Assembly: GCA_027343695.1 (NCBI GenBank)
Contig: DAHWKJ010000030.1
Coordinates: 56,650 to 120,649, forward strand
Source: Sulfobacillus sp.
GTDB taxonomy: Bacteria; Bacillota; Sulfobacillia; Sulfobacillales; Sulfobacillaceae
DNA length: 64,000 bases
Direction of reading: 5' to 3'
The notes under the pieces: generated by a model
The model's input: the letters and a program-made list of their open reading frames with translations, nothing else
The model's database searches: none
What the model was told of the DNA's origin: nothing
Part shown: piece by piece, positions 5,054 to 36,955 of the stretch
Layout of the letters: every line of letters starts with the position of its first letter
Numbering within the stretch: position 1 is the first letter of the stretch
Program-made: the position numbers and the translations under genes

Positions 5054-5068
5054 GGTGGTATACCTTGA

Positions 5069-5180
5069 ATACGCCAAATTCTGTAAACACAGAAACGGAG
5101 AACCCGATTATCTGGGGTGAATTGCGATTGCAAAGGGCATGTCCACGGCCCTAACCCGTCAGCTAACTTCGTAGGCGTTG
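5069..5180 (+). ncRNA. ydaO/yuaA-class cyclic di-AMP riboswitch aptamer
   Basis: ACGCCAAATTCTG...GGAGAACC...CTGGGGTGAATTGC...AGGGCATGTCC..GGCCCTAACCCGTCAGCTAACTTCGTAGGCGT. Hallmark blocks GGGGTGAAT, AGGGCATGTCC and CCGTCAGCTAAC-TCGTAGGCG match the ydaO consensus; P1 is ACGCC/GGCGT. Confidence 0.94.
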
Positions 5181-5225
5181 GGGGCTCAAGGGCAGATTTT
5201 TAGTTACCGTAATGGGTTTTCCTGT

Positions 5226-13428: not shown

Positions 13429-13797
13429 ATGATAATACGGCTCCTTCCTTCATGTATTGCCTCCGAGGTTAGTTGGTCGGTTTGGACAGAAGGTGCCCTA
13501 CCAGGGGGTATCAAGCCCGAGGATTCACCATGATGCATCCCCCGTACGCGGCATTCGATGCGACGATTCGGCTTTGAGGAGTCAAGCTTATCCTAAGGGG
13601 GATGGGATCCGAATGTCACGTCGAATGCCGTCGACTGTGGTCGGTTGGTCATGGTTGGCGGTCGCATCTCCCCATAATGGGCCAAAGCACGTCGAATTTG
13701 ACAGACGTGGAAGAATACGGTAGTCAGGAGGAGAACTGCAGTTGCTTTGGGGAATTTTGCTATAATAGAGCAACGCGAAAGCTTGGGAGGTGCGGGA

Positions 13798-29207: not shown

Positions 29208-30362
29208 TTAGAACACGAGTGCTTGGCTGAAGTCCTCCAGGATATCGGTAGAATCTTCCAAGCCTACGGATACCCGCACCACATCGCCGGTAATTTCCCG
29301 AATCCGGCGTTCCTCCGGTGTCAGGGCAGCATGGCAGTGCAGTTCGGGTAGCGACACGATGGTTTCGGTGCCGCCGAGCCCAGCTCCAATTCGTGCCCAT
29401 CGTAATCGTGACGCCATGACAGTCACCGCTTCGGAACTTTTTAAGCGGAATGTGACCATTTGCCCGAAACCACGTTCAGTCGTCATTGTGCGTTGGGCTA
29501 CTTCGTGACCGGGATGTCCTGGGAGACCTGGATAGTAGACGGTGGAGACCGCAGGATTGCCGGCCAGTGTTTGAGCTAGCTCATAGGCCGTGCGAGACGC
29601 ATGGCGCATTCGCACTGGGAGCGTCCGAAGCCCTCGATGTACGGTATACGCGTCATCGGGTGATAAAATGGCCCCCGCTGCATTTTGTATAAAGTACAAC
29701 CTTTCTGCTAAACCCGATTCGCGTGCCACGGCGAGCCCAGCGGTGACGTCAGAATGGCCCCCAATCATCTTGGTGCCTGAATGCAGCACCAAGTCTACTC
29801 CCATCCGTAAAGGATTTTGAAGGTAGGGAGTGATGAACGTGTTGTCAACCCAGACTTCTATCCCGTGGCGATGGGCCCAAGAAACTATGTTGGGGATGTC
29901 CGCAACGTGCAGAAATGGGTTTGAGAAGTTTTCTACGAGAAGGGCCTTCGTGTTGGGGCGTCTGACAGATTCCAAATGGGGCAACGAGTCGGTATTGGCA
30001 TAACTAGCGGCGATGCCAAAACGGCTGAAAACACCACGCAAGAGTCGTTGCGTGCCGCCCTGACAATCTTCTGAGACGATCACATGATCGCCACTCTTTA
30101 AAAGTAAGAAACTGGCGGTCAAGGCGGCCATGCCTGAAGCAAAGGCAAATCCTCGCACCCCGCCTTCGATGGACGCGATGGCGTTCTCGAGAGCATTTCG
30201 GGTTGGGTTTGCGGACCGCGCGTAGTCAAATGGGGGCGGGTTCCAAGGGTCCGCCTGATGGTAGGTGGTGGCTCGGTATATGGGTGGCACCACGGCTTGG
30301 CTGCTGGGGTCCAGTTGGTGAGCATGGACAAAATTGGTGTCAGAATTCGGTGTGGCTGGCAT
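29208..30362 (-). CDS. Cys/Met metabolism PLP-dependent enzyme (cystathionine gamma-synthase/lyase family)
   Basis: IYRATTYHQADP...YARSANPTRNALENAIASIEGG...LHSGTKMIGGHSDVTAG (PLP Lys). Confidence 0.92.
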   Translation of the reverse strand: MPATPNSDTNFVHAHQLDPSSQAVVPPIYRATTYHQADPWNPPPFDYARSANPTRNALENAIASIEGGVRGFAFASGMAALTASFLLLKSGDHVIVSEDCQGGTQRLLRGVFSRFGIAASYANTDSLPHLESVRRPNTKALLVENFSNPFLHVADIPNIVSWAHRHGIEVWVDNTFITPYLQNPLRMGVDLVLHSGTKMIGGHSDVTAGLAVARESGLAERLYFIQNAAGAILSPDDAYTVHRGLRTLPVRMRHASRTAYELAQTLAGNPAVSTVYYPGLPGHPGHEVAQRTMTTERGFGQMVTFRLKSSEAVTVMASRLRWARIGAGLGGTETIVSLPELHCHAALTPEERRIREITGDVVRVSVGLEDSTDILEDFSQALVF

Positions 30363-30408
30363 GGTAGTTCCTTCCCCTCATTCTTGTTGGAGACCCCGCA
30401 TGAGAGAC

Positions 30409-31545
30409 TTAGAGGCTTAGCGCCGTTTCTAAGTCGTTTACAAGGTCGTCGGGATGCTCGATGCCCACTGAGAGACGCATCAATCCTGGGTGGATGCCCA
30501 ATGCGATACGGATGGCTTCTGGCAACTCACGATGGGTTTCGGTATAGGGGTGGGTAATTAGAGACTCCACCCCACCCAAACTAACGGCCGGAAGGATGCA
30601 CCGCAGTCGGGATGAAAAATATCCGGGATCCACATGGGCTGGAAGTTGGAACGAAACCATGGCTCCGGGTCCGGTGGCTTGGCGTTGGTGGAGGGCAATG
30701 TCTTCATCGGTCCCAAGGTCGGGATAATATGCGCGTACTACACCTGGATGGTTGTCCAAAAATTGGGCGATCTGTCTCGCGCTAGATTCCTGTTGGTTAA
30801 GACGCAATGCCAACGTCTTCAGACCTCGCATCACCAGCCAACTATCGATCGGACTCAAAGCTCCGCCACAGGCGTTGGCAATAGTGGCTATTTGCTCAGC
30901 GCGCTTCGGATCGCGAGCGATGACGGCACCCGCTAGGACATCGTTATGGCCAGCGAGGTATTTGGTAGCACTGTACACCACCAAATCGGCGCCCAGTTCA
31001 ATGGGACGCTGGCGCAAAAACGTCATAAAGGTATTATCGACTGCGATCAATGCGCCGGATTCGTGTGCTATGCCGGAAATGGCCCGAATATCGGAGACTT
31101 GTAACAGGGGATTACTGGGACTTTCGATAAAGACCAATTGGGTGTTAGGGCGCATCGAAGCCCGGACCTGCGATAAGCTTCGTGTATTTACGTAAGTGGT
31201 TGAAATCCCGAATTTTGTGAATGTATCCTCAAAGAGCCGATAGGTGCCGCCATATACATCTTCCGTGAGTACGACGTGGTCTCCTTGCTTCAACGTAGCG
31301 GCGATAGCGTGAATCGCCGCCATCCCCGAGCTGAAGAGACTTGCCCCAGCTCCGCCCTCAAGGCTCGCCAGCGCTTCAGCAAGCGCCCCTCGTGTAGGGT
31401 TGCCGGTACGGGAATAGTCAAAGGGCCCGAGACCTTCGGGGCCGTGTTGGTATGTTACGGAAGGATAAATCGGGGCAGAAACCGAACCGTAGGATGGGTC
31501 GGCATGGATCCCGACCTGGGCTAGCTGTGTTTCGCGGTGCCACAC
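30409..31545 (-). CDS. Cys/Met metabolism PLP-dependent enzyme, paralogue of the adjacent gene
   Basis: YSRTGNPTRGALAEALASLEGG...VYSATKYLAGHNDVLAG...SLGGVESLITHP. Confidence 0.93.
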   Translation of the reverse strand: MWHRETQLAQVGIHADPSYGSVSAPIYPSVTYQHGPEGLGPFDYSRTGNPTRGALAEALASLEGGAGASLFSSGMAAIHAIAATLKQGDHVVLTEDVYGGTYRLFEDTFTKFGISTTYVNTRSLSQVRASMRPNTQLVFIESPSNPLLQVSDIRAISGIAHESGALIAVDNTFMTFLRQRPIELGADLVVYSATKYLAGHNDVLAGAVIARDPKRAEQIATIANACGGALSPIDSWLVMRGLKTLALRLNQQESSARQIAQFLDNHPGVVRAYYPDLGTDEDIALHQRQATGPGAMVSFQLPAHVDPGYFSSRLRCILPAVSLGGVESLITHPYTETHRELPEAIRIALGIHPGLMRLSVGIEHPDDLVNDLETALSL

Positions 31546-31565: not shown

Positions 31566-31949
31566 TCAGGATAGTAGAAACCGTTCAAGTCCTTCTCGGA
31601 TGGCCGTACTCTCCGAGGACAAGATCAAAAGTTCTTGGCTTAGTTTCTCAATCCATTGGTCCAACGGGATGGTTTCTGTCTTTAAGGCAATATCGCGAAC
31701 CACCTTAATTCTTTGCGCCTCAAGACGGCCTCGGTTTTGGAGCAGACTATACTTCATATCGCCCAATGTTACGTGAATGGCGGAAACAGGCTTGCTTTTC
31801 GAAAAAATCCCCCCGCGCCGCTCGACGATAGTGTGGTTCGGGATAGCGCCTTCGAGTTTTTTAGCCAGGATCTCTAAAAAAGCCAAGATGTCACCGCCAT
31901 CTTGGCGCAGGCTGGCAGCCAAAATATCGAATGATAAATCGTCGGCCAA
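31566..31949 (-). CDS. Hypothetical protein, 127 aa, upstream of the PLP enzyme pair
   Basis: Complete minus-strand ORF, co-directional and close to 30409-31545; no family recognised. Confidence 0.65.
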   Translation of the reverse strand: MADDLSFDILAASLRQDGGDILAFLEILAKKLEGAIPNHTIVERRGGIFSKSKPVSAIHVTLGDMKYSLLQNRGRLEAQRIKVVRDIALKTETIPLDQWIEKLSQELLILSSESTAIREGLERFLLS

Positions 31950-32885: not shown

Positions 32886-32996
32886 CTTCTTATCAAGAGT
32901 GGTGGAGGGACTGGCCCTGTGAAACCCGGCAACCCCCGTATGGGAGGGTGCTAAATCCTGAAAGATCCTTATCGGGGGATCTTTGCAGATGAGAAG
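32886..32996 (+). ncRNA. SAM-I (S-box) riboswitch aptamer
   Basis: CTTATCAAGAGTGGTGGAGGGACTGGCCCTGTGAAACCCGGCAACC...GGTGCTAAATCCTG...; P1 CTTCTTATC (32886-32894) with GATGAGAAG (32988-32996). Confidence 0.97.
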
Positions 32997-33001
32997 AGTG
33001 C

Positions 33002-33033
33002 ACACGCCTCTTCTCATCTAGGCGTGTTTTTTT
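33002..33033 (+). terminator. SAM-riboswitch terminator with competing antiterminator
   Basis: ACACGCCT (33002-33009)/AGGCGTGT (33020-33027), then a T-run. Antiterminator GATGAGAAGAG (32988-32998)/CTCTTCTCATC (33008-33018) is mutually exclusive with P1 and terminator. Confidence 0.93.
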
Positions 33034-33072: not shown

Positions 33073-34068
33073 ATGATGCGGATAACGACTTTAGGAACCT
33101 ATCCTAAAATCTCCAAGGATCAAGGACCCAGTGTTCGAACGGCGATTCAGCGCTTCGAGCGCCAAAATATAAATGCCGCCGCGTTGGACCAGGTTTATCG
33201 AGACGTGACTCGCCGCGTGCTGACCATTGCGGCGGAAAATCGATTAGATCTGACCACGGATGGGCTCATACGATGGAATGACATGTTCGACGCGGTGGTT
33301 CGAGATATCGAAAACGTTGCGTCTGCGGGATTGCTCCGATTTTTAGATAATAATTTCTATTACCGACATCCCTTGATTCGTGGCCGTTTGTCCTATCAAG
33401 GCGGCGTCTTGCGGTGGTGGCTGGCAGAAGCCCAACGTTTGTCGTCCGTACCTCTGAAGGCTGTATTGCCCGGACCTCTGACCTTTTTGAAGTTATCGGA
33501 AGATGATAGCTACCAAGATCGGGGCCGGTTGCTCGCGGATTTGGTCGAGGTGTTACGCCTAGAGGCGCAGTCACTACGCGACATCGGAGTGGCGGAAATT
33601 CAGTGGGATGAGCCGGCTCTCGCATATTATCCGGGGTGGGATGTTCAGGAGGTTAAAGAAGTTCTGGGCGCTTTGATTGCCGGTGCTGAGACGCCTCAGG
33701 CCGTGGCGCTATATTGGGGACCTAATGTCCACTCTTGGATAAACCCCATGAGTCAAATCGGATTTGATCGAATTTATTGTGACGCCGTGTCCGATCCTGA
33801 GGTGGTGCCATATTTACAAGGCAATACGGTGCCCAGCGAGGTGGGCCTCGGCTTAATCGATGCCCGGCAAGTGAGCCGTGAACCTGTGTCTAGCACTGCA
33901 CGTGTGGTCGAACGGGTGTTGGCTGTGCAAGGGGACCATAAGGTATGGTTGCACCCCAATGGGGGACTTGAACTCTTGCCACCCGACCGAGCCGAAGAAA
34001 AATTACGAGTCTTGGCCGAAATCCGCGACGCCATCCACGGACGCACTGAAGGAGGATTTACATCATGA
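33073..34068 (+). CDS. MetE-fold protein resembling the N-terminal (zinc-free) half of MetE
   Basis: TLGTYPKISKDQGPSVRTAIQRFERQNI...EIQWDEPALAYYP; zinc-ligand positions replaced (ALYWGPN; LHPNGGLELLP). Confidence 0.8.
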   Translation: MMRITTLGTYPKISKDQGPSVRTAIQRFERQNINAAALDQVYRDVTRRVLTIAAENRLDLTTDGLIRWNDMFDAVVRDIENVASAGLLRFLDNNFYYRHPLIRGRLSYQGGVLRWWLAEAQRLSSVPLKAVLPGPLTFLKLSEDDSYQDRGRLLADLVEVLRLEAQSLRDIGVAEIQWDEPALAYYPGWDVQEVKEVLGALIAGAETPQAVALYWGPNVHSWINPMSQIGFDRIYCDAVSDPEVVPYLQGNTVPSEVGLGLIDARQVSREPVSSTARVVERVLAVQGDHKVWLHPNGGLELLPPDRAEEKLRVLAEIRDAIHGRTEGGFTS

Positions 34069-35051
34069 CTCGAACATTGCAAACCACCAGCGTGGGGAGT
34101 TTCCCCAAACCGCCGGCTCTCGTAAGGGCACGGGCTCGATTTCGACGGCACGAAATTACCGCTCAGGAACTACATCTGGCGGAACAACAGGCCACATTGG
34201 AGGTCATTAAACTACAGGAAGAATTGGGCATTGATATCTTAGTCCATGGCGAAATGGAACGGGGAGACATGGTGGCCTACTTCGCTGAGAACTGGAACGG
34301 ATTTGCGATTTCGTTACCGGTGCGCTCTTACGGGAATCGTTACTATCACAAACCGGTTGTGCAGGGCCCGGTTTCATTTAAAGAGAAACCAGGGTTGACG
34401 GTTCCGTCGTGGCAAGCGGCGCAAGCACTTACCGACAAACCCCTGAAGGGAATGTTAACAGGCCCTTACACCATTTGCGACTGGTCATTTAACGACTATT
34501 ATCCCGATCGCCGAAGTCTGGTTTTGGAATTAGCGCATCTGGTCCATGAGGAAGCCATGGCACTCGCCCAAAGTGGAGCCACTTACATTCAAATTGATGA
34601 ACCGGCCATCTCAACGCGGCCACGGGAATTGGACCTTGCGATTGAGGCTATGGGGATTGTCACCCGAAATTTGCCAGCGCATACCATCAGCCATATTTGC
34701 TATGGTGACTTCGAAGCGATATATCCTGCGTTATTGGATTTACCGGTGGATCAACTTGACCTGGAAGCCACCAATGGCCACTTTCATTTGCTGGATGTAC
34801 TAGGGTCGGTTCCCTGGCCGAAAAACAAGGAATTGGCTCTCGGTGTGGTTGATGTCCATAGTCATCGATTGGAGTCTTTGGATGAGGTCAAGGCCGGCAT
34901 CTTACGGGCGTTGGAGGTGGTTCCTCCCCATTTGTTGTTCATCGATCCAGATTGTGGGCTAAAGACCCGCACCTGGGATGAGGCGGTGGAGAAACTGCGC
35001 GTAATGACCCGCGCGGTGCAGGCAGTGCGCGATGAGCTAGGGCTCGACTAG
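34065..35051 (+). CDS. Core (C-terminal-type) cobalamin-independent methionine synthase
   Basis: TTSVGSFPKP, YIQIDEPAIS, zinc ligands SHICYGDF (H-x-C), LDLEATNG (E), DPDCGLKTR (C); overlaps the previous gene by 4 bp. Confidence 0.9.
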   Translation: MTRTLQTTSVGSFPKPPALVRARARFRRHEITAQELHLAEQQATLEVIKLQEELGIDILVHGEMERGDMVAYFAENWNGFAISLPVRSYGNRYYHKPVVQGPVSFKEKPGLTVPSWQAAQALTDKPLKGMLTGPYTICDWSFNDYYPDRRSLVLELAHLVHEEAMALAQSGATYIQIDEPAISTRPRELDLAIEAMGIVTRNLPAHTISHICYGDFEAIYPALLDLPVDQLDLEATNGHFHLLDVLGSVPWPKNKELALGVVDVHSHRLESLDEVKAGILRALEVVPPHLLFIDPDCGLKTRTWDEAVEKLRVMTRAVQAVRDELGLD

Positions 35052-36955
35052 TGGCGCTGTCGGAGCTTCAGCAGCATCTCCAGTCTCGAGGGATCCTCGT
35101 GGCCGACGGGGGAATTGGTACCTATCTCATGGCGAGTGGTACCGACATGCGTGCGTTGCCTTTAATGCCGGTTGCGGCTCCCGAGGCTGTGTTTCAACTC
35201 CACTTAGATTATCTCAACCGAGGAGCTCAAGTCATCGAAACCCACACTTTTGAGGCCAACGCAAGTAAGCTCGGATCTCTAGGGTTGGTGGAAGATGTGT
35301 ATACCCTCAATCGAAGAGCCGCGCAGATAGCGCGCCATGCACGCGATACTCATGGGAGTCCGAGCTTTATTGTGGGAGCTTTGGGACCGCTTGCCGTAGG
35401 CGTTGATGCGGCCGTGGGACCGGGGATTACGTACCGCGATGCGGTGCAAATCTATCGGGAATCCGTCCAAGGCTTAGTGGCCGGAGGGGTCGATGGGTTT
35501 ATTATCGAGACGATGTCGGATCGTCAAACGGTCCGTGCGGCGGTGGAGGCGGTGCGGGAGGAATCCCCGTTACCCATCATCGTGACCTTTGCCTTTTCTC
35601 CCGCGGGGGAGACCTTATATGGATTAACCCCCGAAGACGCGATGAATTTTGCGGCGGAGTTACCAGGGGGGCCCCCGTTTTTGGTGGGGGCTAATTGCGG
35701 CAGCGGACCCGCTCCGCTCTTGGATGCGGTAATCCGCATGGCTCCGATTGCTAAGCATCATGGCATCGCTTTAGCGGCGTATCCTAATGCGGGCGAACCG
35801 TCGCGTCGCGGGGGTCACATTCAATATCCTGCGAGCCCTGAATATGTAGGAACCATTGCGCCTGCTCTGCGGGCCGCCGGGGCGGTGATTATTGGCGGAT
35901 GTTGCGGTACAACGCCCGAACATATCGCTGCGGTGGCTCGATCGCTTGCCGATCTCCGGGTCTGGAGCATGCCCCACTGGGACCCGATGGTGCCCGAATC
36001 CCACCCGATGGTCGAACCGTCGTTGGCGACGGCTCAGCGAGGGGTGCGTGCGCTATTTGAGAACCGATTTGTCGTTAGTGTGGAATTGGACCCTCCGCGC
36101 GGAGTCACGGTATCCCGTTTGTTAGAGGCCGCGCGGACCGTGTATAACGAGGGCGTTGATGTCGTGAATATCGGCGACAGTCCGATGGCACGGGTGCGGC
36201 TTAGTGCCTTGGCGACGGCTCGACTCATTGAGGAGCAGATCCCGCTACAAACTATCCTACATTTTACGACCCGAGATCGGAATCTCATGGGAATCCAAAG
36301 TGATTTATTAGGAGCTCACGCTCTCGGGTTACGTAACGTTCTTTGCTTGACAGGAGATCCCCCGGGTCTGGGAGACTATGCGCATGCTACGGCCGTCTAT
36401 GATCTAGATTCGATTGGATTGGTCAAAGTCTTAGAAGGGTTTAACCAGGGACACGATGCACTGGGGCAGGCGATAGGAACTTCCACTCATTTCGATATTG
36501 GAGTGGGGATGAATCCCAATGCAGCCGACTTAGACCACGAAATTGACCGAAGTCTACGTAAACTTGAAGCAGGTGCGCAATTTATCATGTTGCAGCCTAT
36601 TTACGATCCCGTGATCTTGTACGAATTTCTAGAAAAGGCACGTCTGCCGGCCCACATTCCTGTCATGCTCGGAGTGATGCCTTTAGTGTCTTATCGACAG
36701 GCCTTATATCTGCACAATGAGGTACCGGGAATTAATATTCCCACGCCCATTTTGGAACAACTTGCCAGTCACATTGACGGCGAGACCTTGGGGGCCGACC
36801 TAGCCATTGAATTAATCGATGCCCTATCTCATGTCGTGGCCGGGGTCTATTTGGTGCCTTCGTACAATCGCATCAGCAGTCTTTTGCCGATTATCCAGCA
36901 TATACGACGCCTGAGGCCAGTCAGTGGGTCCAATAGTCCGCCATTTGATGGATGA
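35051..36955 (+). CDS. Bifunctional homocysteine S-methyltransferase / methylenetetrahydrofolate reductase (YitJ-like)
   Basis: BHMT-like domain VADGGIGTYLMASG...VGANCGSG...GGCCGTTPEHI, fused to MTHFR VSVELDPPRGVTVSRLLEAA...NVLCLTGDPPG...GAQFIMLQPIYDP. Confidence 0.92.
   Translation: MALSELQQHLQSRGILVADGGIGTYLMASGTDMRALPLMPVAAPEAVFQLHLDYLNRGAQVIETHTFEANASKLGSLGLVEDVYTLNRRAAQIARHARDTHGSPSFIVGALGPLAVGVDAAVGPGITYRDAVQIYRESVQGLVAGGVDGFIIETMSDRQTVRAAVEAVREESPLPIIVTFAFSPAGETLYGLTPEDAMNFAAELPGGPPFLVGANCGSGPAPLLDAVIRMAPIAKHHGIALAAYPNAGEPSRRGGHIQYPASPEYVGTIAPALRAAGAVIIGGCCGTTPEHIAAVARSLADLRVWSMPHWDPMVPESHPMVEPSLATAQRGVRALFENRFVVSVELDPPRGVTVSRLLEAARTVYNEGVDVVNIGDSPMARVRLSALATARLIEEQIPLQTILHFTTRDRNLMGIQSDLLGAHALGLRNVLCLTGDPPGLGDYAHATAVYDLDSIGLVKVLEGFNQGHDALGQAIGTSTHFDIGVGMNPNAADLDHEIDRSLRKLEAGAQFIMLQPIYDPVILYEFLEKARLPAHIPVMLGVMPLVSYRQALYLHNEVPGINIPTPILEQLASHIDGETLGADLAIELIDALSHVVAGVYLVPSYNRISSLLPIIQHIRRLRPVSGSNSPPFDG

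Follow-up and report, generated by a model that had tools for sequence, protein, structure and literature searches.

Organisation of the operon

The window analysed here is a stretch of 64,000 nucleotides from a Sulfobacillus sp.; among named species it is closest to Sulfobacillus benefaciens, S. thermotolerans and S. acidophilus. The source assembly comprises 2.88 Mb in 107 contigs and is 83.6% complete, and absences reported for this genome are provisional. Three genes on the forward strand of the window are tightly coupled. ORF1 (33073-34068, 331 aa) and ORF2 (34065-35051, 328 aa) were assigned as the N-terminal and the catalytic barrel of a split MetE, and ORF3 (35051-36955, 634 aa) as a YitJ-type homocysteine S-methyltransferase/MTHFR fusion. 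ORF1 and ORF2 overlap by 4 bp (ATGA), and ORF2 and ORF3 by 1 bp. The same coordinates and overlaps had been given in an earlier sequence-only reading of this DNA, and they match exactly the open reading frames that we found.

ORF1 and ORF2 lie in different frames without a linker, and no single polypeptide of the tandem-MetE type (TIGR01371) is encoded. Like the split MetE genes of archaea and of Sulfobacillus sp. hq2 they are direct neighbours, here by virtue of the 4-bp overlap and likewise in all 29 related loci that carry the pair. At each of these loci the order ORF1-ORF2-YitJ is kept, so the three-gene arrangement is not due to chance. The order of the two genes is also that of the two halves of MetE, as would be expected if an ordinary tandem enzyme had recently been broken by a frameshift or by fission. 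Such an origin is hardly conceivable, however, since the genes have their own starts and are separate across the Sulfobacillus family, Zixibacteria, Omnitrophota, Chloroflexi and archaea, and since the bacterial split catalytic subunits cluster next to tandem MetE in the sample analysed. The recent frameshift that the sequence-only reading had considered can thus be dismissed, as dozens of genomes carry the genes separately. The relative G056 was checked for a naturally fused gene combining the ORF1 and ORF2 homologs but had none; there, too, the frames differ.

The leader region

A SAM-I (S-box) riboswitch aptamer, absent from the sequence-only reading, precedes the operon at 32887-32995 on the forward strand (Rfam RF00162, 86.8 bits against a gathering threshold of 44.4). 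Two further elements on the same strand were read from the sequence. In the probable antiterminator (32987-33019), AGATGAGAAGAG (32987-32998), which is the 3' strand of aptamer stem P1, pairs with CTCTTCTCATCT (33008-33019); this fold has a value of -22.7 kcal/mol and a z of -4.2. The probable intrinsic terminator (33002-33033) consists of ACACGCC (33002-33008) and GGCGTGT (33021-33027) followed by a T run. Its loop of 12 bases is beyond the limits of the promoter and terminator scan, which yielded nothing of use here, and it was therefore recognised by eye. The two structures are mutually exclusive, like those of other S-boxes, and would have a regulatory role. Because of this arrangement and the known behaviour of S-boxes, the riboswitch is expected to switch the operon off at high SAM levels.

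The association recurs in relatives: 15 of the 16 related loci searched for RNA families had a SAM riboswitch upstream of the pair, and only the most distant of them (L063) gave none above threshold. At L057 a PLP enzyme of Cys/Met metabolism lies between the riboswitch and ORF1. Elsewhere in the window there are two c-di-AMP (ydaO) riboswitches, at 5062-5192 on the forward and at 13443-13583 on the reverse strand.

The catalytic barrel

ORF2 matched both Meth_synt_1 and Meth_synt_2 of Pfam, the latter with 256 bits. Its best NCBIfam match was PRK04326 with 380 bits, which is below the cut-off of that model (406), as against 171 bits for PRK00957; the catalytic subunit of an archaeal adjacent pair reached 452 bits with PRK04326 and so passed the cut-off. 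ORF2 does not exceed 400 aa and is closest to the archaeal catalytic subunit, which are the marks of a split-MetE catalytic component.

Functional residues of MetE were taken from Pejchal and Ludwig (PMC539065) and transferred via alignments. All four zinc ligands are present in ORF2 (H210, C212, E234 and C297), in agreement with the complete H-x-C/E/C site noted earlier. The homocysteine contacts are S12, E63 (aligned with E462) and D178, and the catalytic and homocysteine residues are intact in all aligned relatives. Two folate contacts are kept as well, W140 corresponding to Trp539 and R92 to Arg493 in T. maritima numbering. In the solo core-MetE proteins of an alphaproteobacterial contrast set the zinc ligands are kept, but the W and R at the folate positions are lost. 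An AlphaFold2 single-chain model of ORF2 (pLDDT 87.2) had T. maritima MetE as its best PDB match, with 36% identity. ORF2 is therefore best described as a barrel that would bind zinc and homocysteine and would contribute the Trp that stacks against the pterin and one Arg that binds the tail.

Not all of the folate site is preserved. The pterin-binding E583 of T. maritima MetE (PMC539065) aligns with T184 of ORF2, and Thr also stands there in most of the split catalytic subunits compared. Arg496 is replaced by His in ORF2 and is Arg in many relatives. Both replacements count against a folate-dependent enzyme. The 8-residue loop of tandem MetE near E583, following QIDEPA, is absent from ORF2 and absent or shortened in most split catalytic subunits; archaeal single-barrel homologs without six residues near Glu583 have been described (PMC539065). 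At a guess, E188 of ORF2 could substitute for E583.

The N-terminal barrel

ORF1 gave weak Pfam matches to Meth_synt_2 (78.9 bits) and Meth_synt_1 (60.3 bits; cut-off 27). According to Price et al. an N-terminal barrel should match Meth_synt_1, preferably with a higher score than Meth_synt_2, and in ORF1 the two scores run the opposite way. ORF1 was nevertheless placed in the N lineage because of its position in the tree, its motifs and its pattern of zinc-ligand loss. In a joint tree of N- and C-type proteins a single 100/100 branch separated all N-type from all C-type proteins. ORF1 thus groups with the tandem-MetE N-halves and did not arise as a recent copy of ORF2; the archaeal and tandem N rows have long branches in this tree, and the order inside the N lineage was not used.

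As the sequence-only reading had observed, LYWGPN and HPNGG stand in ORF1 where ORF2 has HIC and PDCG. In the alignment its zinc positions are Ala, Tyr, Asp and Gly, those of the tandem N-halves mostly Ala, Tyr, Asp and Cys; in other words the changes His to Ala, Cys to Tyr and Glu to Asp are common to both. The motif R-x-x-D-N-N-F-Y-Y-R of ORF1 corresponds to K-x-F-D-T-N-Y-H-Y of the tandem N-halves. R89 aligns with the folate-contact Lys104 and R22 with Lys18; both arginines are kept in at least 95% of 30 rows (relatives and window) and are nearly invariant in Sulfobacillia. ORF1 has no obvious equivalent of R15, a point against a folate-dependent split MetE. The AlphaFold2 single-chain model (pLDDT 89.7) again had T. 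maritima MetE as best PDB match, at about 20% identity. ORF1 would accordingly be a zinc-free N-terminal barrel that caps ORF2, presumably in a physical complex, and adds basic residues at the folate cleft.

The N-barrels of two Zixibacteria loci (L096:4929-5969 and L098:5001-5984) scored about 200 bits with the catalytic-barrel profile, which is unusually high, despite the loss of their zinc ligands. They may be slowly evolving N-barrels.

YitJ and the methyl donor

The description of ORF3 as a BHMT-like/MTHFR fusion was borne out by Pfam matches to S-methyl_trans and MTHFR and by 589.8 bits with the YitJ model PRK08645 (cut-off 453). In the translation the methyltransferase domain shows its zinc motifs, NC and GGCCG. 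ORF3 is the only match to PF02219 (MTHFR) in its genome, and its MTHFR domain would reduce methylene-THF to methyl-THF and supply it to the ORF1/ORF2 pair.

This link is reflected in the distribution of the genes. Among 61 genomes (the source genome and 60 relatives), 32 had an ORF1 homolog, 31 of these an ORF2 homolog as well, and 31 a YitJ-type MTHFR; in the lone exception the contig breaks off within the ORF1 homolog. Neither ORF2 homologs nor YitJ-type MTHFR were found in any of the 61 genomes without an ORF1 homolog. The Fisher value for this co-occurrence (1e-16) is not a true probability, related genomes being non-independent. All three genes are absent from 11 members of the order, two of which are represented by assemblies that are only about 60% complete. 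Relatives without the operon encode single MetE-like proteins of 376-390 aa with zinc motifs (L064:4888-6021, L069:3878-5008, L067:4825-5979 and L068:4684-5856); most genomes with such proteins are without MTHFR, and none has MetH or YitJ.

The sequence-only reading had considered a folate-independent core MetE with a corrinoid or other donor. According to this view ORF2 would be a core methionine synthase of the MesA-D type using a corrinoid or unknown donor, which ORF1 would present. It is true that ORF2 is a single barrel of about the size of MesA-D, and that it does not retain the pterin-site residue E583. However, in MesA and MesC the E484 position is occupied by Gln (PMC7857596), whereas ORF2 has Glu63 there and all aligned Sulfobacillia relatives have Glu, and the score with PRK04326 is far above that with PRK00957. 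The folate-contact residues Trp and Arg are kept, and the sole detected MTHFR lies in the operon, with whose presence or absence MTHFR goes hand in hand among the relatives. MesB is associated with CoFeSP, and the partner of MesD is MesX (PMC7857596). No CoFeSP (PF03599) was found in the source genome, although the same search gave matches in four control genomes. MesX is not encoded in the operon, and PF08908 had no match in the 61 genomes, a result that carries no weight, since the controls were equally silent. None of the 61 genomes had a MetH match exceeding the cut-off, and near-complete relatives agree with the source genome on MetH and MTHFR. The sole B12-binding domain of the source genome belongs to a 129-aa protein encoded directly before a MeaB-like gene, an arrangement of the methylmalonyl-CoA-mutase type, and the genome yielded no candidate for a corrinoid methyl carrier. 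A core synthase with a corrinoid or unknown donor is thus very improbable. Since no alternative donor was found and the operon is tied to MTHFR, the evidence favours methyl-THF as the likely donor.

It might also be asked whether YitJ itself is the main methionine synthase, leaving the MetE pair with another role or as a backup. The zinc motifs kept in the methyltransferase domain and the presence of ORF3 beside the pair in all loci examined would be compatible with this. The activity reported for YitJ/SamT of Bacillus subtilis is AdoMet:homocysteine transfer (PMC6302742), however, which yields no net methionine from methyl-THF, and the residues with which ORF2 performs catalysis and binds homocysteine have been preserved throughout its aligned relatives. 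We regard a principal role of YitJ as very improbable. Salvage, for example with AdoMet as in B. subtilis, is the probable contribution of the methyltransferase domain of ORF3. To speak of two methionine-synthesis routes, as had been done, is therefore an overstatement: the split MetE is most likely supplied by the MTHFR half of YitJ, while the methyltransferase half most likely serves a side or salvage reaction.

Taken together, the operon very probably specifies a methionine synthase that depends on folate but not on cobalamin and has its two barrels on separate polypeptides. Of the possibilities raised in the sequence-only reading, a split folate-using MetE rebuilt by ORF1 and ORF2, with YitJ in the same operon, is the one supported.

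Next to the operon, at 29208-31545 on the reverse strand, are two neighbouring genes for PLP enzymes of Cys/Met metabolism (cystathionine lyase/synthase-like), which probably supply homocysteine. The 127-aa protein encoded beside them (31566-31949, reverse strand) had no Pfam or NCBIfam match.

Relation to known systems

Split MetE was named by Price et al. (2021), who found it mostly in archaea but also noted two neighbouring genes of this kind in Sulfobacillus sp. hq2; they predicted that the methyl donor would be methyl-THF or some other methyl-pterin (PMC7857596). A complex of PF1268 and PF1269 from P. furiosus is cited in the same paper. The split form is therefore already published, including that of Sulfobacillus, and the present locus is a further member. 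It shares with the archaeal and hq2 pairs adjacent genes for an N-terminal and a catalytic barrel, each below 400 aa, and a PRK04326-like catalytic subunit to which the zinc ligands are confined; it differs in having yitJ downstream and a SAM riboswitch upstream. Compared with tandem MetE (T. maritima TM1286), there are likewise two barrels with the zinc and homocysteine residues, Trp539, Arg493 and the N-barrel loss pattern, but they form two polypeptides, lack the inter-barrel linker and the 8-residue loop after QIDEPA, and have Thr for E583. MesA-D also have a single catalytic barrel with a zinc site. Unlike split MetE they have no N-barrel partner and, in the characterised cases, do not use folate; MesA and MesC in addition have Gln at E484. 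ORF3 has the same two domains as B. subtilis YitJ/SamT but adjoins a split MetE. No other description of split MetE, in Sulfobacillus or elsewhere, was found in the literature searched, which included few subscription journals.

Distribution and evolutionary history

What is new here is, firstly, the occurrence of split pairs in Zixibacteria, Omnitrophota, Chloroflexi and Limnochordaceae, which were found together with another Bacillota lineage when GTDB genomes were scanned with an ORF1 profile. The second new observation is the conserved linkage of split MetE to YitJ and an S-box. A YitJ homolog follows the pair at two of three Zixibacteria loci, in Bu54 and at the Limnochordaceae locus, where it is broken over two frames. 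In two Omnitrophota loci (L101:4743-10310 and L108:4995-10477) the N and C genes are more than 3 kb apart and not adjacent.

The third is the position of the catalytic subunits. In a tree that included 13 archaeal rows, the bacterial split MetE formed a group (90/77) beside tandem MetE, and both together made up one side of a 99/98 branch. The comparison with archaeal split MetE that the sequence-only reading had proposed thus placed the bacterial subunits beside tandem MetE and not inside the archaeal group; the root of this tree was not inferred, the tandem sample was confined to Pseudomonadota and Thermodesulfobacteriota, and fusion versus fission is not settled by it. An import from co-habiting Sulfolobales was also considered and rejected: the AU test disfavoured a clade uniting the catalytic subunits of bacterial and archaeal split MetE (p 0.012), and the 99/98 branch speaks against it. 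We would suggest, tentatively, that bacterial split MetE could be an unfused sister of tandem MetE that retains the state before fusion, instead of a late archaeal import or a product of late fission.

Many archaeal MetE proteins labelled as "core" have been argued to be catalytic subunits of split MetE (PMC7857596), and this caution extends to bacterial proteins. With split MetE more widely spread in bacteria and placed as sister to tandem MetE, it becomes possible to test how the double-barrel enzyme evolved. In Sulfobacillus a bacterial split MetE, what is probably its supply of methyl-THF and a SAM riboswitch are brought together in one operon, a combination that can be tested in Escherichia coli.
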